Shown: one piece after another, positions 16,370 through 39,872 of the stretch
How the letters are laid out: each line of letters begins with the position of its first letter
Numbering within the stretch: position 1 is the stretch's first letter
NCBI GenBank assembly: GCA_019310525.1
Contig: JAFDEE010000021.1
Span: forward strand, 1-39,920
DNA: 39,920 bases
Source of the DNA: Deltaproteobacteria bacterium
Lineage (GTDB): Bacteria; Desulfobacterota; DSM-4660; Desulfatiglandales; HGW-15
Direction of reading: 5' to 3'
Translations under genes and position numbers: made by a program
The notes under the pieces: generated by a model
Database searches by the model: none
Told to the model about the DNA's origin: nothing
The model's input: the letters and a program-made list of their open reading frames with translations, nothing else

Positions 16370-16931
16370 TGTCCATACATAAAAAGCAGGCAATTTTGTT
16401 CAAGGTCAAGCCTCCGGCCCGTAAGGCCTACGCCCCGGAGGGGAAGGTGAAGATTTTAACCGCCCCGCTTGGGACGCCAAGCGGCAGAGGCACCATACAT
16501 TGAATATTTCGAGGATTAAACCCAAATTATGCGTGAACGCTTGTCCAAAGAAGGGTAAAGGGATTTTCCCGGAGCGGCCTATTTTGGCTCTGGAGCAGCC
16601 TGCCTGCCGCAGGCAGGGAGAGCGGAAGGGCCAAAATCGGCAGTGAGCGGAGCCATGGACGGCGTAGCGAACGTAGCGGAGGGAACATCCCTTTACCCTT
16701 CACCCATCAGGTGCTGTCAGGATGCTTTAACATATTGTAATAAAGATAAATTTCAGCATTAACGCATAATTTGGGTTAAAATTTGTCCTCGCTGCGCTTG
16801 GACTCCCCACCCTTCTGGTGGGTCCCCGGTTTGAGTCTGACGCAGCTTGTCCGCCTCTGGTGCGGCTTGTCACGCCGGAGCCATAGCAAAGGCGGAAGAT
16901 TGGGCAAAAGGGGGCATTTTTCAAAGGTCTC
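16367..16931 (+). repeat. Intergenic repeat element, copy C, split by a nested insertion
   Basis: The left terminus tagtgtccatacataaa starts within the rny stop codon. Modules shared with copy A follow: CAAGGTCAAG (16402-16411), ATTTTAACCGC and TATTTCGAGGATTAAA (ending 16520). The element then resumes after a 255-bp insert with AAAATTTGTCC, the CGCTGCGCTTGGACTCCCC segment, a CCCACC/GGTGGG hairpin (16806-16822), CCGGTTTGAGTCTGACGCAG, and, as in B, GGGCAAAAGGGGGC plus CATTTTTCAAAGGTCTC (16915-16931). It carries an extra block near 16411-16440 (GCCTCCGGCCCG...CGGAGG hairpin) absent from A. A right-hand terminal repeat was not found. Confidence 0.7.
16521..16775. mobile_element. 255-bp MITE-like element nested in repeat copy C, with 5-bp target duplication
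   Basis: Terminal inverted repeats CCCAAATTATGCGT (16521-16534) and ACGCATAATTTGGG (16762-16775) are perfect over 14 bp. They are flanked by TTAAA on both sides (16516-16520 and 16776-16780). Copy A at 295-305 shows the unoccupied site, GGATTAAAATTTG, with a single TTAAA, so the insertion event can be read directly. Inside is a second inverted pair, GAAGGGTAAAGGGAT (16550-16564) and its complement (16687-16701), enclosing a mostly self-complementary region with a CCTGC/GCAGG palindrome. There is no transposase, so it would be mobilised in trans. Confidence 0.8.
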
Positions 16932-30519: not shown

Positions 30520-30585
30520 TACGAACTCTCTTTTTTTGACCTGGTTCAATGTTTATGTTTTCTCTTGACCGAGGAGGTGAAATCC

Positions 30586-31575
30586 ATGTCTCAATGGTAT
30601 TTGAGTTATGATGGGAAGCAGATTGGTCCTATGGATCACGCCCAGGCCGTAGCCCAGGCCAGAAGCAACCCCAACGGTTTTGCCTGGAGGCAGGGATTCG
30701 GCAACTGGATGCCCATTTCCCAGGTCCCGGAACTGAGTGCCGCCGGAGCCCCATCGCCACCGCCCCCTGCCGCCGCAAGAGGGGCTGACGTGATCGATTA
30801 TCAGATAATGGGTGCCGAAATGCAGTTTGTGGAGGTGGAACTGGATCCAGGGGAGAGTGCGGTGGCGGAGGCCGGCGCCATGATGTACAAGGACGCCCCT
30901 GTAGAGATGCAGACCATATTCGGTGACGGATCTACCTCGGGAGAAGGCGGCGGGTTCCTGGACAAACTCATAGGGGCGGGAAAGCGGTTGATCACCGGTG
31001 AGAGTCTCTTTATGACCGTTTTTACTCACACCGGGCAGGGGAAGGCCCACGTGGCCTTCGGGGCCCCCTATCCTGGGAATATCATCCCTGTGGCCTTGAC
31101 CGATGTGGGAGGGACTCTGGTGTGCCAAAAGGACAGCTTCCTTTGTGCGGCCAAAGGAGTCTCCATCGGAATCTATTTCCAGAAGAAGATTCTTACGGGC
31201 CTTTTCGGGGGTGAGGGATTCATTATGCAAAAACTCGAAGGCGACGGGCTGGTTTTCCTTCATGCCGGGGGAACCGTAGTGGAGAGAACCCTGGGGGCCG
31301 GCGAAGTATTGCATGTGGATACCGGGTGCATAGTGGCCTTCCAGCCCAGCGTTGATTTCGATATCGTGCAGGCCGGTGGAATCAAGACCGCCCTTTTCGG
31401 TGGGGAAGGTTTTTTCTTCGCAACCCTCAGAGGTCCGGGCAGGATCTGGCTCCAGTCACTTCCTTTTTCCCGGCTTGCCGGAAGAATGCTGGAAGCGGCC
31501 CCACAAAAGGGTGGGAGTCAGGGCGAGGGATCGATACTCGGAGCCCTCGGGAACTTTATAGATGGAGACAACTAA
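30586..31575 (+). CDS. GYF_2 domain plus AIM24/TIGR00266 family protein
   Basis: This 329-residue protein starts at the ATG at 30586, just after a strong GAGGAGGTGA (30571-30580); a frame start 21 bases earlier has no such site. Residues 1-50 form a GYF_2-type domain (WYLSYDGKQIGPMDHAQAV...GFAWRQGFGNWMPISQVPEL). After a Pro-Ala linker comes the AIM24 beta-sandwich domain (about residues 70-300), with repeated Gly-rich turns such as GGEGFIMQKLEGDGLVFLHAGG and PFSRLAGRM near the end. No signal peptide is present. The molecular role of the family is not established. It probably belongs with the DUF533-like gene 66 bases upstream. Confidence 0.87.
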   Translation: MSQWYLSYDGKQIGPMDHAQAVAQARSNPNGFAWRQGFGNWMPISQVPELSAAGAPSPPPPAAARGADVIDYQIMGAEMQFVEVELDPGESAVAEAGAMMYKDAPVEMQTIFGDGSTSGEGGGFLDKLIGAGKRLITGESLFMTVFTHTGQGKAHVAFGAPYPGNIIPVALTDVGGTLVCQKDSFLCAAKGVSIGIYFQKKILTGLFGGEGFIMQKLEGDGLVFLHAGGTVVERTLGAGEVLHVDTGCIVAFQPSVDFDIVQAGGIKTALFGGEGFFFATLRGPGRIWLQSLPFSRLAGRMLEAAPQKGGSQGEGSILGALGNFIDGDN

Positions 31576-31773: not shown

Positions 31774-32184
31774 TCATTCGCTTTTAACAGCGATCTTACG
31801 GGGAGTCGCGGCTTCAGCCTTGGGAAGCTTTAATCGCAAGACCCCGTCCTTCAACTCAGCCTCTATTTTCGACTGATCGATCACCTGTGAGAGGCTAAAC
31901 TGCCGATGATATTTCCCGGTGCGATATTCCCTGATGACATCGACTTCGTTTTCCCCTTCAGGGGTCTTCACGTCTCCGTCAAGGGTCAGCACGTTTTCAC
32001 GAAGATCAATGTTGAGATCCTCGGCCTTTACACCCGGCATATCGGCCAGTAAGGTGATTTCGTTATCCGTTTCAAAAATATCCACTGCGGGGGTGAAAAC
32101 CAGGCCCGGCTTTGTTTGTTCGGCGGGTGTGGTCACTTCGGTTTTCTTTTTCGCCTGAAGGGCTTTGCTTTCGGTCTCTGCCAT
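31774..32184 (-). CDS. Hsp20 family small heat shock protein (downstream copy)
   Basis: This 136-residue ATP-independent holdase chaperone has an Ala/Lys/Glu-rich N-terminal arm (residues 1-28) followed by the alpha-crystallin domain (about 30-125), with PAVDIFETDNEITLLADMPGVK at its start and the GVLRLKLPKAE motif at its end. The C-terminus is RKIAVKSE. AAAGGAGGG lies 7 bases before the ATG. It is 41 bases downstream of a second hsp20 gene and probably shares its promoter. Paired Hsp20 proteins of different length often form mixed oligomers; that is inference here. Confidence 0.93.
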   Translation of the reverse strand: MAETESKALQAKKKTEVTTPAEQTKPGLVFTPAVDIFETDNEITLLADMPGVKAEDLNIDLRENVLTLDGDVKTPEGENEVDVIREYRTGKYHRQFSLSQVIDQSKIEAELKDGVLRLKLPKAEAATPRKIAVKSE

Positions 32185-32225
32185 GTTGAATCCCTCCTTT
32201 CATTTATGAGATGAGGCGATGGGGA

Positions 32226-32684
32226 TCATGACGTCTTGACGGGGATTGTTTTAGGTTTTGCTGTTTCAGCCTTCGGCAAGACGACCGTCAGGATACCGTT
32301 CGCGCAGCGCGCTTCAACCTTTTCCGTGTCCAGTTGGCCGGGCAGGGTGATGATCCGGCTGAATTTACCGGCCTCCCGTTCTCTTCGGTGGTAGGTGGCG
32401 TCTTCGGCCGGGATTTTCCTCTCACCCGAGATGGAGAGGGTTTCCCCGGTTACGGAGATATCCAGTTCATCGGCCTTGATACCGGGAAGTTCAGCCCGAA
32501 CGTAATAGTTGTCCTTGTCCTCCGTCACGTTCATCAAGGGAAACACGCCGGCGATGGGTTCCCTGAAAAATCCTCTCGAAAGACTTTCAGTGAGCCATTC
32601 CATCCGCCTTCGCATCCGTTCGAGCTCATCGAATGGACTCGTAAAGTCCCAGGTCGGCCAATCTGTAAGTTTTCCGAACAGCAT
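32226..32684 (-). CDS. Hsp20 family small heat shock protein (upstream copy)
   Basis: This 152-residue protein starts at the ATG 32684, chosen because AAAGGAGGGA lies just before it; a longer frame reaches 32738 without such a site. The N-terminal arm (FGKLTDWPTWDFTSPFDELERMRRRMEWL) is of the common Hsp20 type. The alpha-crystallin domain spans about residues 45-140 and ends with the GILTVVLPKAE motif; the C-terminus is KTIPVKTS, with an I-x-V anchoring motif. It is the first gene of the two-gene chaperone unit. Confidence 0.93.
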   Translation of the reverse strand: MLFGKLTDWPTWDFTSPFDELERMRRRMEWLTESLSRGFFREPIAGVFPLMNVTEDKDNYYVRAELPGIKADELDISVTGETLSISGERKIPAEDATYHRREREAGKFSRIITLPGQLDTEKVEARCANGILTVVLPKAETAKPKTIPVKTS

Positions 32685-32820
32685 GATATATCCCTCCTTT
32701 CCTTGGCCTGGTCGGCCGTATGAATGAGACCCTACCAAGAAAAAGATTTATTCATTGTAGGTTCGACCCATTCCAGGGTCTGCTGCATGTTCCACCGATC
32801 GATGGATGTCTTTGCAAAAA

Positions 32821-33991: not shown

Positions 33992-34433
33992 TTTCAAAGG
34001 AGTCTCCGTGGCAGGCCTCAAAAAAAGGCCAAAATGCCTCTCTTAAGCAGTTTTCCCGCATGCCGTCGTGGCTTCCGGAGCGCAGCACAGGTTTCACATT
34101 CCCGTTCAGGGAGAAAGTATTAGCTTTACGGCCTGCCTGACCTGTTTTGACTTCATGGACGGGAAAAGTATATTCTTGACGATCCCTGACAGGCCCTTTT
34201 TCCCGGATACCTGATTATTCTATATTATGCAAAATTTTTGCCTAAAAGTTCCGGCCTGTGTCCTTAATATCCCATTCTGATAATGGGAGGAAATCTCTCG
34301 CCTTCCTTGACCTTGAACAAAATCGAACCCTTTTCAACGGTCTCAAACGTATGGGAAAATCCCTTCCCCAGGATAGGAGGTGTCGGAATAACCGGCTTCC
34401 GCCATGTCTTTGACGCCCCCTTTTCGCCTTGCC
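33992..34433. other. Intergenic stretch between rfbB and the GTPase pair
   Basis: No gene was seen. On the minus strand a CATAAT (34229-34224) in an AT-rich patch may be the -10 of an rfbB promoter, though no convincing -35 was found. The right part carries fragments of the dispersed repeats (34263-34344). Confidence 0.45.
34263..34344 (-). repeat. Partial inverted copy of the dispersed repeat (fragment E)
   Basis: The hairpin block CTTAATAT-CCCATTCTGATAATGGG (34263-34287) is followed by CGCCTTCCTTGACCTTG (34300-34316), the reverse complement of the copy A module CAAGGTCAAGGAAGGCG (238-254). Next comes AACAAAATCGAAC and then CCCTTTTCAACGGTCTC (34328-34344), a diverged form of the 17-mer. Confidence 0.6.
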
Positions 34434-36200
34434 TCAGTTGCGCTCGCTACGTTTTTCAACAGCCTGTTGAGGGCTCCCTGGATTTTGGGGTTTCTCCAAA
34501 AGAGAGTCGAGAGCGGATTTTCTTTCCCTGACTTCTGTCACCAGATCCTTCATTCCCTCGAACAGATCCCTGACCTCGTCTCCCCACGCCTTGCGAAGGA
34601 AGATCTTGAACCGTTCCCTCAGTTCTTCTCCGTGACGGCGCAGTTTTACGGCATAACGGGTATAGATGCGGATGGAAAGCAGAAGGTTGAGAAGAGCATA
34701 GGTTGCCAGAGCGGCAAGCCCCTGGGAACTGAAAAGGTTTTGAATCAGTGTGATAAGGAGCCCTATGATGGAGGCAGGCCCTGGTTCTTTCAGGGCTTGG
34801 TGCCATGCGTTTCCGCCTACGGCGAAAAGAAGAAACAAGAACAGGATCAGACGGCAGACCCACTGGATGAACCAGAGAAGACGGAAAGAAGGAATGGGTG
34901 GATCGGAGGTCAAGGAATCGGCTTCCTGCGACAGGATTTCTTCCAGCTTCTCGGCTCGTATACTTGCCCGAACCGTGTCACTTTTCAGCCTTCCGTAAGG
35001 GGAAGGAAGGCCTTCTGCCATGAGGATGCGGTCCAGCCGCGCTTCGAGGCCTTCAAGGCGTTTCTTGAATGCAGCGGCGATTTCCTTTGGAAGGGAAGGT
35101 GATACCGGTTCGGACGAGAAGGAGCGGCCATTGGCAGGATTCGGTAGAAGGGCCCGTAAGGTCATGAATACCAGGAAACCTGGGCCCGACGGGAGATAGG
35201 AATCTTGCTTTTGCAGCAGGATTTGCGGAAAAAAGTTTTCGCGGACCTGTTTCTCAATAACAGTGTCCCCGGCCGCGATCCACCGGGGAAATTCTTTTTC
35301 GAGTTCTCCCTGGAGATCCTCCAGAATCTTTTGGAAGACTTCAAGATTTCGGGCCTCTTCTCGAAGCGGATCAAGGAAGGTGCGGATTTCCACGTCCAGG
35401 TTCGCGGCCTTGACGGCGCGGATGTGCTTCATATCCCTTTGGCGGAAAAGGTCTCTGCGGAATATCGGGAACTGGTTCCAGGTTGATGGATCCCTTTCAA
35501 GGACCTCCTCGGCGGAAAGAAGATAGATGAGGGGATCACTCACTCCGTGCAGGGTGAGGTATTGGCGAAAATTTTCGACGAGGCGGGCCATCCGGTCATA
35601 GCCCATTTCCAGGGACTCGTCCTTGAAGAGAAGATCTGCCTTGTTCAGCACGAAGACGAAATTGCCCGGGGATTTGACCGTTCCTGCAAGAACCTCGTAG
35701 AATCGCCCATCAGCATATTTTTCAGGCGAGGTGACCCAGACCAGGATATCCAGTTTTTCGAGAAACCTCGCCACATGGTCACGATGCTCGAACAGGATGC
35801 TGTCGAAATCCGGTAGATCGCAGAGGAGGACCTGGAGTATCGATCGGCTGTCATGGACGATCTCGCGCCATGGTAAACCTTCCAGATCAAGATCAGGCAA
35901 TGGGGCTTCATTGTGCCTGTATATGAGAATACGGTCGGTATGGGGCCTCCGGTGGTCGGCGGAGGAGATGTTCTCACCGGCAAGGGCGTTCATGAGTGTG
36001 GATTTGCCAACCCCTGTTCCGCCGAGGAGTCCGACAGTCAGGAAGCCCCTTTCCACATCGGCGAGCTTCCCGGCGAGCTCATCCGCCTTTTTCAGGAGGT
36101 CATGCCTTTTTTCCGGGGGCAGGGTCAGGAATTCCCCTTGCTCCAGCATGGAGGTTGTCCTGTCAAGGGTTTCTTTGAGTTCTCGAATCGATCTTTCCAT
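34434..36200 (-). CDS. Membrane-associated dynamin-like GTPase (second of a tandem pair)
   Basis: This 588-residue protein has a short N-terminal helical region, then a GTPase domain with P-loop GGTGVGKST (60-68), G3 as D128-LPD (DxPD instead of DxxG) and G4 as NKAD (186-189). The motif VTSPEKYAD (156-164) recurs in the paralogue upstream. A long helical, charged middle (about 265-430) is followed by two hydrophobic stretches (about 441-463 and 477-510) and a basic C-terminal helix. This layout, GTPase head, helical stalk and membrane segments, resembles bacterial dynamin-like proteins. It starts 15 bases after the paralogue's stop and is probably co-transcribed. The cellular role is unknown. 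Confidence 0.8.
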   Translation of the reverse strand: MERSIRELKETLDRTTSMLEQGEFLTLPPEKRHDLLKKADELAGKLADVERGFLTVGLLGGTGVGKSTLMNALAGENISSADHRRPHTDRILIYRHNEAPLPDLDLEGLPWREIVHDSRSILQVLLCDLPDFDSILFEHRDHVARFLEKLDILVWVTSPEKYADGRFYEVLAGTVKSPGNFVFVLNKADLLFKDESLEMGYDRMARLVENFRQYLTLHGVSDPLIYLLSAEEVLERDPSTWNQFPIFRRDLFRQRDMKHIRAVKAANLDVEIRTFLDPLREEARNLEVFQKILEDLQGELEKEFPRWIAAGDTVIEKQVRENFFPQILLQKQDSYLPSGPGFLVFMTLRALLPNPANGRSFSSEPVSPSLPKEIAAAFKKRLEGLEARLDRILMAEGLPSPYGRLKSDTVRASIRAEKLEEILSQEADSLTSDPPIPSFRLLWFIQWVCRLILFLFLLFAVGGNAWHQALKEPGPASIIGLLITLIQNLFSSQGLAALATYALLNLLLSIRIYTRYAVKLRRHGEELRERFKIFLRKAWGDEVRDLFEGMKDLVTEVRERKSALDSLLEKPQNPGSPQQAVEKRSERN

Positions 36201-36215
36201 GAGGGTGAATAATCC

Positions 36216-37952
36216 TCAAGTCTGGTTTGCACCAAGTCGGGAGTGAAGGGTTTTCAACCTCTCCAGGGTTTCAGGAGGAGTTGACAGGGAGAAGAGGCAG
36301 TCCTCATAGCGCTGTTTCTGAAGCCTTAAGACGGATAAAAGCCCTTCCCGGTAACGGCGGGACAATTCCCCCGCCACTCGCTGGATTTCCTGGTAAGCGA
36401 AAAGCTCGATGGCCCCCTTGGTGACAAATGGGGCGAGCACGGAATCAAGGGTCGCATCAAGGAGAGTGAACCCTCCCCCGACGGCCGTTTCCAGGGAAAG
36501 GATCAGAATTCCCCACAGGATCGATGTCGAATAGATGCCCCATTTTTTCCCTTTGGGAATCTCCCGGGAGAGCTTGCGAAAGGTTTCCTCCAGCCAACCG
36601 TACAGTTCCTCCTGTTTTTTGAAGAGGTGCCTTTCCACGGCCTCCCTGTCAAGACCTATCTCCGGGCGGCGAGCCATTTCCCATAGGGGGCTGTTCCGCT
36701 CCGGAAACGGGATACTCTCCAGAACCCGTACATTGAAGGTATCCAGACTCCTCAGCACAGGTTCAAGATTCATCTTTTCACGGATTTCAGAAAGTTCCTC
36801 CTCACGGGACTTCCCGCGGGGAGGGGTGTAAAATCCAAGGATATGAAGGGGAACTTGCAGCAGATTCCTAACAAACCTCCTGGGCCCGGCCAGGATATCA
36901 TAGCGGGCGAAGAGTCTCTTGATTTCTCTTTTCAGGTATTCCCTGCTCCTTTGGGAGAACCGCTCCTTCTCCTCTTCCAGAAGCTCCCGGGAAACCTCGG
37001 CAAGGAGGGAATCCACCCCGTCCAACCACCGGCCGGCCGCTTCCCTTTCCTCCTCGAGAATCTCGATCACACGACCGGTCCGGATCCTGAGATCTTTTGC
37101 GCGGTTCCTCCTGAGGGTGGCCCGAATCCTGGATTGGTTCTCCGGGGAGAGTTCCTTCAAAAGATGTTCCTTGAACCCCAGGAAACCGGGATCCTTGAGG
37201 ATCTGCCCTTGAACCTCTTTCCCGGCAAAGGGAATCACTCCGATTCGGTTTTCCTCGATGGCGAGGTCCTGGTCCCGGAGGAATTCCTTCACCTCACGGG
37301 GCCCGAACGGCCTTCTAGCCTTGTTTGCCAGGACGAAACAGGGTTTTTGATCCAGAAATGTTTGCCTGAGAAAACGGAAGGGAATCTCGTCGGCATACTT
37401 CTCCTGGCTTGTCACGAAAACCACGATATCGGCCAGGAGGTAGATGTTTTGGGTTATCTTCCTGTTTTCGGGTTCCAGGCTGTCCACATCAGGAGTGTCG
37501 ACCAGGACGGTGTGGCGTAAGTCTTCGTGGTCGTGGGTGAATACCTGGAGTTTGCCTGGAATTCCACGGGTAGGTTTCAGTGGGATGCCCTCCCTGGCGG
37601 GTCGGGCCTGGAGCATGTCTGGGAACGGGAATCCCTCTTCCATCCAGGAGTCCTGGTGGGCATAGGCCAGGGAACCGCGGGTCTTGGGCCTTTCGATTCC
37701 CGTAATGCTCAGCATTTTTCCGCAAAGGGCGTTGAAGAGGGTGGATTTGCCCGTACCGGTCCCTCCCAGGAACACCACCCAGATGCTGGGGGATTGATCC
37801 TTGTACATGAAGGTGCGGATTCTGCCGGGAAGATCTTGGGCCAGGGTATCGATTTCAAAGGCCCCGGGAGTCAGGCCGGGACAAATGAGAGGTTCCTCTC
37901 CCAGCAGGTCTCCAAAGGAGGGGACGGAATTGTCCGCTTGGCGCTTATTCAT
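36216..37952 (-). CDS. Membrane-associated dynamin-like GTPase (first of a tandem pair)
   Basis: This is a 578-residue protein from the ATG at 37952; the frame runs 37 codons further upstream, but that part has poor character. The P-loop is GGTGTGKST (63-71), G3 is D152-TPD (DxPD), and the G4 position reads NKAR (210-213) where GTPases normally have NKxD, so base specificity may be altered. VTSQEKYAD (180-188) matches the paralogue. A helical charged region (about 290-470) leads to a hydrophobic segment (about 471-512) and a C-terminal amphipathic helix. The ribosome binding site is weak. The divergent PhoU-like gene starts 322 bases away on the other strand. Confidence 0.78.
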   Translation of the reverse strand: MNKRQADNSVPSFGDLLGEEPLICPGLTPGAFEIDTLAQDLPGRIRTFMYKDQSPSIWVVFLGGTGTGKSTLFNALCGKMLSITGIERPKTRGSLAYAHQDSWMEEGFPFPDMLQARPAREGIPLKPTRGIPGKLQVFTHDHEDLRHTVLVDTPDVDSLEPENRKITQNIYLLADIVVFVTSQEKYADEIPFRFLRQTFLDQKPCFVLANKARRPFGPREVKEFLRDQDLAIEENRIGVIPFAGKEVQGQILKDPGFLGFKEHLLKELSPENQSRIRATLRRNRAKDLRIRTGRVIEILEEEREAAGRWLDGVDSLLAEVSRELLEEEKERFSQRSREYLKREIKRLFARYDILAGPRRFVRNLLQVPLHILGFYTPPRGKSREEELSEIREKMNLEPVLRSLDTFNVRVLESIPFPERNSPLWEMARRPEIGLDREAVERHLFKKQEELYGWLEETFRKLSREIPKGKKWGIYSTSILWGILILSLETAVGGGFTLLDATLDSVLAPFVTKGAIELFAYQEIQRVAGELSRRYREGLLSVLRLQKQRYEDCLFSLSTPPETLERLKTLHSRLGANQT

Positions 37953-38170
37953 TACCGTTTCAGCCGAATTTCCAAGGGCTTCTATGCCGATTCGCGGCAG
38001 AAGGAGTATTCCCGGAAGAGACGGGCGAATAAGCACTATAAGCCAAAGACCGGTCCCTGTCAAACCGGGGAAAGGACCGGTTGGAGGAGGGAGTGGTGTT
38101 CGGCCTCACAAAGGGAATATTTGACACCTTTTCTTGATTGCTGGTAAAAGGAGTGAAATAGATGCTCCCT

Positions 38171-38220
38171 CGGGCCGGAGGCTTTACCTTGAACAAAATC
38201 GAACATTTTTCAAAGGTCGC
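38171..38220 (-). repeat. Partial inverted copy of the dispersed repeat (fragment D)
   Basis: The bases CGGGCCGGAGGCTTTACC (38171-38188) plus TTGAACAAAAT are the reverse complement of the block in copy C (about 16393-16422), with one mismatch. CATTTTTCAAAGGTCGC (38204-38220) follows. It lies 54 bases before the PhoU-like gene start, in what should be its leader. Confidence 0.6.
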
Positions 38221-38274: not shown

Positions 38275-38928
38275 ATGTTTGGATTTCTTTTCCGAAAGCA
38301 AAGAATGGTGGAAGAACTCATCGGGAAATACCTGGATAATCTCAGGATGACCCAGGAGTATTTCACCGAGGCCCTGAATATCTGCCTGGAGGGGAGCTGT
38401 AAGGGGGATTTCGATTTCATGACCGAGCAGACCCACAAGCACGAATCCAGGGCGGACGATATCAGGGATGAAATCAAGGATCTGATGTATAGCAAAGCCC
38501 TGTTGCCCGAGTCCCGTGGAGATATCATGGGATTGCTGGAGGCCATGGACCTGATCCCAGGTATCTTCGAGCGACTCCTTTTCATGATAGGGACCGAGAA
38601 GATTGAGATCCCGGAATTCATCGTTACGGACGTAAAAGAACTCATTGAATACTCCCTGGCAAGTTTTGATCTCATGATCAAGCAAGTAGAGGCTCTTTTC
38701 AAGAGAGGCGGGGAGATCCGCTCCATGGTTTCGGTCATCGATCGCAACGAGAGCCATTGTGACCACATCGAAAGAAGGATCATAGCCGCTATCTTCTCTT
38801 CACCAACCCTTGACCCTTTCAGGAAGATCCTCCTCAAGGAACTCATTGTGACCATGGGAGATATTTCCGACCAGGCCGACCGGGTATCCAAGAGGGTCAA
38901 CATCATCAGCATGAAGAGAATCGTGTAA
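38275..38928 (+). CDS. PhoU-like DUF47 family protein (Pit accessory)
   Basis: This 217-residue all-helical protein of the DUF47/TIGR00153 group is distantly related to PhoU. The ATG at 38275 (MFGFLFRKQRMVEELIG) follows GGGGAAGG; the longer frame from 38134 runs through repeat fragment D and is not credible. Acidic metal-binding PhoU-type motifs are visible (EQTHKHESRADDIRDEIK about residues 51-68 and DRNESHCDHIERRI near 157-170). Its TAA shares a base with the ATG of the phosphate transporter gene, an arrangement common for DUF47-pit pairs, where the first protein is thought to modulate transport. Confidence 0.92.
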   Translation: MFGFLFRKQRMVEELIGKYLDNLRMTQEYFTEALNICLEGSCKGDFDFMTEQTHKHESRADDIRDEIKDLMYSKALLPESRGDIMGLLEAMDLIPGIFERLLFMIGTEKIEIPEFIVTDVKELIEYSLASFDLMIKQVEALFKRGGEIRSMVSVIDRNESHCDHIERRIIAAIFSSPTLDPFRKILLKELIVTMGDISDQADRVSKRVNIISMKRIV

Positions 38929-39872
38929 TGGTCCCTTTGCTCGGCGGCATCTTCCTCGGCTGGTCCCTGGGGGCGAATGACGCCTCCAACGTTTTCGGCG
39001 TGGCCGTATCCTCCCGCATGGTGAAGTTTTGGACCGCAGCCTTGCTGGGGGCCGGCTTTGTTCTGCTCGGTGCGCTCCTGGAGGGCGGGGCCGGGATCGA
39101 GACACTCAAAAACCTGACACCGATGGATCTCAACCAGGCGGTCGTATGTTCCGTGGGGGCTGCGGCTACGGTCAGCGTTATGACCCTGCTCGCCCTTCCT
39201 GTGTCCACCTCTCAGGCCGTGGTGGGAGCCATTGTGGGTATCGGTCTGCTGAACGGGAAGATCGACCTCGGGGGACTCGGGAAGGTCGTTCTCTGCTGGC
39301 TTGGGACACCGCTGGGAGGCCTGATTTTCGCCCTGCTGGTGTACAGGCTGCTTGGGACCCTTTACAACAGGCTCCCCTTGAATCTCTTTCAAGTGGACCG
39401 GCTTCTTCGTATCGGCCTGATCCTGGCAGGTTCCTACGGGGCCTACACCCTCGGGGCCAACAACGTTGCCAACGTAACCGCGGTTTTTGTGGGCGCCGGC
39501 ATGCTGGATGTCACCTCAGCGGCCCTTATCGGGGGGTTGAGCATCGGTCTGGGAATCGTGACCTTCAGCCGCGGGGTGATGGAGACGGTCGGGAAAAAGC
39601 TGGTCCGGGTGGATGCATTTTCCGCCCTGGTCGTGGTCCTTGCCGAGGCGATCACTGTCCATGTGTACACCTTTTTGGGGGTGCCGGTATCCACATCCCA
39701 GGCAGTGATCGGGGCCGTCCTGGGAGTCGGAATGGTAAAAGGGATCCAGTCCGTGAGCGGTAAGACCCTCGGAGAGGTCCTTGCCGCTTGGTTTTTCACA
39801 CCTGCCGTATCGGCCTTGATGGCCGTGGCCATTGATTTTGTTGTTCATCTGGAATATGTTCCCGGCAAGTGA
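38928..39872 (+). CDS. pit: Pit-type inorganic phosphate transporter
   Basis: This 314-residue PiT family permease takes up phosphate, often as a metal-phosphate complex, by ion symport. It has an inverted-repeat structure: GANDASNVFGVA (first half) and GANNVANVTAVF (second half) are the two signature loops, and PVSTSQAVVGAIVGIG and PVSTSQAVIGAVLGVG are the matching second motifs. About ten membrane segments are present. It starts at the ATG overlapping the upstream stop (TAATG). It is somewhat short but complete, ending 48 bases before the window edge. Confidence 0.95.
   Translation: MVPLLGGIFLGWSLGANDASNVFGVAVSSRMVKFWTAALLGAGFVLLGALLEGGAGIETLKNLTPMDLNQAVVCSVGAAATVSVMTLLALPVSTSQAVVGAIVGIGLLNGKIDLGGLGKVVLCWLGTPLGGLIFALLVYRLLGTLYNRLPLNLFQVDRLLRIGLILAGSYGAYTLGANNVANVTAVFVGAGMLDVTSAALIGGLSIGLGIVTFSRGVMETVGKKLVRVDAFSALVVVLAEAITVHVYTFLGVPVSTSQAVIGAVLGVGMVKGIQSVSGKTLGEVLAAWFFTPAVSALMAVAIDFVVHLEYVPGK

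Follow-up and report, generated by a model that had tools for sequence, protein, structure and literature searches.

The window analyzed here is the 39,920-nucleotide stretch at positions 1 to 39,920 of contig JAFDEE010000021.1, from a Deltaproteobacteria bacterium of the Desulfatiglandales (HGW-15). We focused on two adjacent genes on its minus strand, which we describe, by predicted fold, as a pair of divergent dynamin-like GTPases. Gene A (36216–37952) encodes a protein of 578 amino acids and gene B (34434–36200) one of 588; both open reading frames are real and co-directional, with 15 bp between the stop codon of A and the ATG of B. An earlier reading made from the letters alone (the sequence-only reading) had called them tandem paralogous GTPases, and our data bear this out. 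A BLASTP comparison of A with B gave E = 5e-14, which, together with the Pfam matches and the invariant DxPDxDS and KYxD motifs described below, indicates homology rather than chance similarity.

The nucleotide-binding motifs are readily recognized in both proteins. The A protein carries the G1 motif, or P-loop, GGTGTGKST (residues 63–71, 37740–37766), in which the P-loop Gly, Thr, Gly, Gly, and Lys are invariant in 34 homologues, followed by the switch I (G2) motif ERPKT (37680–37694), whose Arg, Pro, and Thr are equally invariant. The corresponding motifs of B are GGTGVGKST (residues 60–68, 35997–36023) and RRPHT (35937–35951), and the pattern GxxxxGK[ST] and the switch-I threonine (RPxT) are kept in all A and B sequences. 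The G3 motif reads DTPDVDS in A (residues 152–158, 37479–37499) and DLPDFDS in B (residues 128–134, 35799–35819), with an aspartate in place of the glycine of DxxG. At an equal distance of 28 residues from the G3 aspartate, A has VTSQEKYAD (residues 180–188, with TSQEKYAD at 37389–37412) and B has VTSPEKYAD (residues 156–164, with TSPEKYAD at 35709–35732). The GGTGxGKST, DxPD, and VTS[PQ]EKYAD motifs had been noted from the sequence alone, and the alignments show how strictly they are kept: KYxD occurs without exception in the A (34 of 34) and B (33 of 33) families, and DxPDxDS is found in all 67 (34 A and 33 B). The G4 motif is NKAR in A (residues 210–213, 37314–37325), where the guanine-specificity aspartate is lost, and an intact NKAD in B (residues 186–189, 35634–35645), with the aspartate present in 33 of 33 sequences. 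The letters of this previously reported difference are correct; NKAR itself, however, is not a fixed motif; the A family has many non-Asp variants, of which it is one.

These replacements affect residues that matter in characterized dynamins. DxxG is the rule for bacterial dynamins, and G4 [NT]KxD is reportedly less conserved among their members (PMC5827413). In human DNM1L, changing either the G3 Gly149 or the G4 Asp218 to alanine abolishes activity, and Asp190 of the trans-stabilizing loop serves G-dimerization (PMC3747075). The [TS]xEKYAD stretch lies 25–29 residues before the fourth G4 residue, compared with 28 residues from Asp190 to Asp218 in DNM1L; we infer from this position that it corresponds to the trans-stabilizing loop. 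We counted G4 residues after aligning 90 G domains of the lineage together with four outgroup rows, the latter being ordinary dynamin-like proteins with a DTPG motif. The G4 aspartate was present in 3 of 29 A sequences versus 31 of 31 B sequences, and the pairs of other lineages showed the same asymmetry (0 of 14 upstream versus 15 of 16 downstream partners), giving 3 of 43 upstream and 46 of 47 downstream partners overall (p = 8e-21). Because the P-loop, the switch-I threonine, and the first G3 aspartate are all invariant in the A family (34/34), A most likely still binds an Mg-nucleoside triphosphate (Mg-NTP), with relaxed choice of base.

Profile searches placed both proteins among the GTPases without naming their lineage. 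Pfam MMR_HSR1 scored above its gathering threshold in both, and Dynamin_N (gathering score 27) did so for A (33.8) and not for B (24.7); none of the curated family models that we scanned names the A/B lineage. Searches of Protein Data Bank (PDB) sequences with the A and B profiles returned no full-length relative, the matches lying around the P-loop or in other short stretches of the G domain. We built AlphaFold2 single-chain models from alignments of relatives (34 for A and 33 for B), with mean predicted local distance difference test (pLDDT) values of 78 for A and 84 for B. Both models contain a dynamin/mitofusin-type G domain and a helical stalk composed of neck and stalk bundles, as the sequence-only reading had anticipated. 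By VIA-align, the best match of A was yeast Fzo1 (Z 19.3, root mean square deviation (rmsd) 5.3, 303 residues); by Foldseek, BDLP and IniA ranked highest, and Cj-DLP was among the best matches. The B model matched mitofusin-1 best (Z 20.9, rmsd 7.5, 294 residues), followed by EHD4, BDLP (Z 18.5), IniA (Z 17.7), and Cj-DLP1 (Z 17.2). The structural matches span the N-terminal helix, the G domain, and the last helix (residues ∼2–578), which is the mitofusin/BDLP arrangement.

C-terminal hydrophobic segments had been predicted for both proteins. They are present in both, as claimed, but unequal. In B, two strong segments (residues ∼441–470 and ∼478–513, 34662–34880, peaks 2.30 and 1.66) form a predicted membrane anchor, whereas A has a single weak stretch (residues ∼473–500, 36453–36536, peak 1.54) at a paddle-like tip. 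By hydropathy, 22 of 33 B sequences have two such segments, and 29 of 34 A sequences have one.

A and B are jointly inherited in the phylum. Among 61 relatives, searches with A and with B matched the identical 12; three more gave weak partial B matches only (E of 1e-4 to 1e-8). Across 297 genomes of the phylum, A and B were found in one and the same set of 24 (E < 1e-20; Fisher p = 7e-36, a value overstated because related genomes are not independent). No A or B singletons were found in these phylum searches, with one genome (G217) set aside because its genes are broken near contig ends. The co-occurrence suggested as a check on the pair thus holds throughout the phylum. Wherever the genes are linked, the order is A then B. 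In two genomes (G160 and G326), the genes are found in the interior of separate contigs of 97–393 kb, which makes their co-inheritance independent of linkage; in G326, a DUF4126 gene still precedes A and a PpiD gene still follows B. In another genome (G163, L167 8598–10725), two genes that resemble IS607 by sequence (191 and 519 amino acids) separate A from B, and both reading frames remain open. Weak A-profile matches in eight genomes (G080, G092, G103, G140, G195, G221, G306, and G308) were not counted as A; those that were read (L097–L101) are ordinary dynamin-like proteins with DTPG.

The pair is not confined to this phylum. A search of contigs with A alone returned no A relatives, which were found with an alignment as query. 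Tandem DxPD pairs in the same order occur in Nonomuraea (L149), Chloroflexota (L145 and L209–L211), Planctomycetota (L146 and L213–L218), and Rhodopila (L144), so that pairs with the order and asymmetry of A/B are found in Actinomycetota, Chloroflexota, Planctomycetota, and Pseudomonadota. A divergent member of the same phylum as the window also has a tandem DxPD pair (L178), and an Armatimonadota contig (L143) ends within the upstream gene. Among plasmid records, the one distant relative was the Nonomuraea record, and a protein search of 100 genomes centered on Rhodopila gave a match in Rhodopila only. At the Rhodopila locus, a gene resembling Hsp70 by sequence (L144 1166–3256) lies on the opposite strand, upstream of the dynamin pair. 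In a tree of 81 G domains, one branch separates all upstream partners from all downstream partners, as expected if a single duplication preceded the split of the lineages and the two genes then traveled together.

In several other families of the Desulfobacterota, the genes around the pair point to the cell envelope. Five loci (L167, L170, L172, L173, and L175) and that of Desulfoferrobacter suflitae (L132) share the order DUF4126 membrane protein, A, B, and PpiD, with a small PLDc_N membrane protein between B and PpiD in some of them. The PpiD of this operon carries SurA_N and rotamase domains. Overall, 11 loci have a DUF4126-cluster gene ahead of A, and 8 have PpiD after B. We rejected DUF4126 as an obligate third component, as it was found in 7 of the 24 pair-bearing genomes (E ≤ 1e-10) and is common in genomes without the pair; it is retained as operon context. 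The DUF4126 protein directly upstream of A in L132, L165, L170–L173, and L175 is a long form of ∼325 amino acids with a C-terminal extension, compared with ∼200–260 in most other genomes. A gene resembling ADP-forming acyl-CoA synthetase, seen close to the pair at 5 of 12 loci, was likewise rejected as a functional partner because its orientation and distance vary.

In the window itself, A and B stand by themselves, flanked by a divergent DUF47-PiT phosphate transporter pair on one side and a nucleotide-sugar dehydratase gene on the other. The DUF47 (PhoU_div) and PiT genes occupy 38275–39872, divergent from A/B; both families recur near A/B in L168 and also, as judged by clustering, in L133 and L169. 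A sigma-70-like promoter, TTGACA-17-TATAGT (11/12, a consensus match only), lies at 38035–38063 on the minus strand, 83 bp upstream of the start codon of A, and a single transcript beginning upstream of A would be consistent with this site. Its position favors ATG 37952 over TTG 38063 as the start of A: the TTG overlaps the −35 box of this best promoter-like site, and the homologues begin near the ATG. Downstream of the dehydratase gene lie two tandem Hsp20 small heat-shock genes (31774–32738), and a protein with an AIM24 domain and an N-terminal GYF_2 domain is encoded at 30565–31575. A dispersed repeat, of which the genome has about 40 partial copies at ∼90% identity, contributes pieces at 34290–34347 and 34423–34468; the stop codon of B is inside the latter, so that the last ∼11 residues of B are repeat-derived. 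Related pieces occur at 38182–38218 and 16393–16421. An Rfam scan of the window gave no match.

Bacterial dynamin-like proteins are mostly encoded as side-by-side pairs, and in Cj-DLP1/2, GTP hydrolysis needs heterotypic G-dimers (PMC6104087). Like A/B, Cj-DLP1/Cj-DLP2 (PDB entries 5OWV and 5OXF) are encoded next to each other, and they have a similar G domain and similar helical bundles (Z of about 17 with B). The P-loop lysine of Cj-DLP1, however, is at residue 175 behind a long N-terminal part (PMC6104087), whereas A and B begin ∼60 residues before the P-loop, and profile searches of PDB chains with A/B gave no sequence match to Cj-DLP1/2. Mycobacterial IniA/IniC (PDB entries 6J72 and 6J73) also comprise two dynamin-like genes per operon with a similar fold, including a potential membrane segment at the IniA tip, but they belong to iniBAC with IniB and were not matched by sequence in the PDB chain searches. 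BDLP heads the Foldseek matches of both models, and Nostoc BDLP1 and the cyanobacterial Tandem A and Tandem B clades share the tandem arrangement of dynamin-like genes (PMC5827413).

In its organization, the pair resembles Streptomyces dynA-dynB, an operon of divisome proteins that both act at sporulation septa (PMC6428758, PMC8748795). DynB, the partner of DynA, is membrane-associated through two segments (PMC8748795). The A/B pair has the same layout of tandem dynamin-like genes in one operon, with A, a dynamin-fold NTPase by prediction, in the DynA-like position and B, a predicted dynamin-fold GTPase, in the DynB-like position with a two-segment anchor as judged by hydropathy. In the tree, the two genes of the Nonomuraea pair fall with A and B on the corresponding sides, and an ssb-like gene lies just downstream of them, as expected of the dynA-dynB-ssbB synteny of Streptomyces. 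Identity to this actinobacterial pair in the G domain is nevertheless ∼30%, and no divisome neighbors were seen beside A/B. Compared through the Nonomuraea pair, A/B is probably the counterpart of DynA/DynB. Because A and B fail the strict DxxG motif definition (PMC5827413), we call them divergent dynamin-like by fold and assign them to no named pair. The sequence-only reading had regarded them as an unnamed type and a candidate undescribed system. In this it was right only in part, since tandem hetero-oligomeric dynamins are already known (Cj-DLP1/2, PMC6104087; DynA/DynB, PMC6428758, PMC8748795) and A/B has the DynA/DynB layout; what does appear to be undescribed is this divergent branch of the known bacterial dynamin pairs.

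Together, these data make it likely that A and B are the two halves of an obligate heterotypic pair of divergent dynamin-like GTPases located at the cytoplasmic membrane. In the mechanism that we propose, B would be the anchored, GTP-specific motor and A a binder of Mg-NTP without strict guanine selection. The shared [TS]xEKYAD loop would let the two proteins pair across their nucleotide sites, and the G3 Gly-to-Asp change in both would alter the geometry of hydrolysis. Catalysis and membrane tethering or remodeling would then need both proteins, as in Cj-DLP1/2. Judging from the DynA/DynB analogy and the operon shared with PpiD, the output may be to maintain or remodel the inner membrane and envelope. 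More tentatively, and at somewhat less than even chance in our view, an obligate-pair lineage spanning several phyla may have rebuilt its switch: the G3 glycine would have become aspartate in both partners before the phyla split, after which the upstream partner would have lost guanine selectivity and kept NTP-Mg binding, with hydrolysis possible only across the heterodimer or with another nucleotide.

Several observations weigh against an obligate pair of this kind. The window pair has no PpiD or DUF4126 gene around it, and no DUF4126 was found in its own genome. Parts of the A stalk (residues 347–381 and 491–515) have pLDDT values under 50; whole-chain TM-scores are low, owing to differing stalk angles, and close superposition is limited to the G domain and neck. 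The branch uniting the upstream partners, at 81/90, is not starred. Two planctomycete genes of the downstream type (L219 and L220) have no visible P-loop partner adjoining, indicating that the pairing rule is not absolute at that distance. Furthermore, the G3 glycine and, in A, the G4 aspartate, both needed in DNM1L, are replaced, so that A could be catalytically dead.

This last point leads to the proposal that A is a degenerate pseudo-GTPase that binds no nucleotide and regulates B allosterically. The loss of the G4 aspartate from 26 of 29 A sequences and from all 14 upstream partners of other lineages, along with the replaced G3 glycine, would fit such a protein. However, the P-loop glycines and lysine, the switch-I threonine, and the G3 aspartate are invariant in 34 of 34 A sequences, which would be unexpected after loss of nucleotide-Mg binding, and the DxPD change is common to B, whose G4 is kept. 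We consider a fully dead A less likely than an NTP-binding one, and the regulator proposal as a whole unlikely. A little less unlikely, although still doubtful, is a division-specific role, in which A/B would be the functional counterpart of DynA/DynB and stabilize the Z-ring or septal membrane in these Desulfobacterota. It draws on the shared gene order and anatomy, with strong membrane segments absent from the upstream partner and two in the downstream one, on the Nonomuraea pair with its ssb-like gene, and on the divisome function of the dynA-dynB operon (PMC6428758, PMC8748795). A core division factor, in contrast, would not be limited to 24 of 297 genomes of the phylum, and no recognized division gene adjoins A/B in the loci read. 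Between division and the envelope stress that had been suggested from the sequence, the sole contextual hint comes from related families, in which the operon includes PpiD and DUF4126.

The patchy distribution of the pair and weak matches to the PADLOC LeoA model (2.2e-9 for B and 1.3e-6 for A) raise the idea of an anti-phage or stress dynamin module, LeoABC-like or of another kind, which we regard as improbable. The likeness to LeoA/LeoBC is a weak profile match in the G domain that stops short of the stalk, the best-matching stretches being confined to the N-terminal part of that domain. No further dynamin-like gene adjoins A/B, and the loci read contain no third one; moreover, no defense genes were seen around the pair, whose neighbors are housekeeping (tmk, holB, and metG, recognized from sequence, not scanned) or envelope genes. 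Least probable of all, and hardly to be entertained, is that A/B are ordinary Era/Der-like TRAFAC GTPases with a helical C terminus. The Era, Der, and MMR_HSR1 profiles do match the P-loop region, but in the full-length models the match to mitofusin, BDLP, IniA, and EHD extends past the G domain, and Dynamin_N is above threshold for A.

The A/B lineage bears on why bacterial dynamins, usually found in pairs, need two unequal partners. It offers a clear and conserved asymmetry, in which B keeps the guanine-specificity aspartate and a strong anchor and A is mostly without that aspartate and has a weaker segment. The shared change of a catalytic residue spans several phyla, and the pair is present in a named strain, Desulfoferrobacter suflitae DRH4 (L132).

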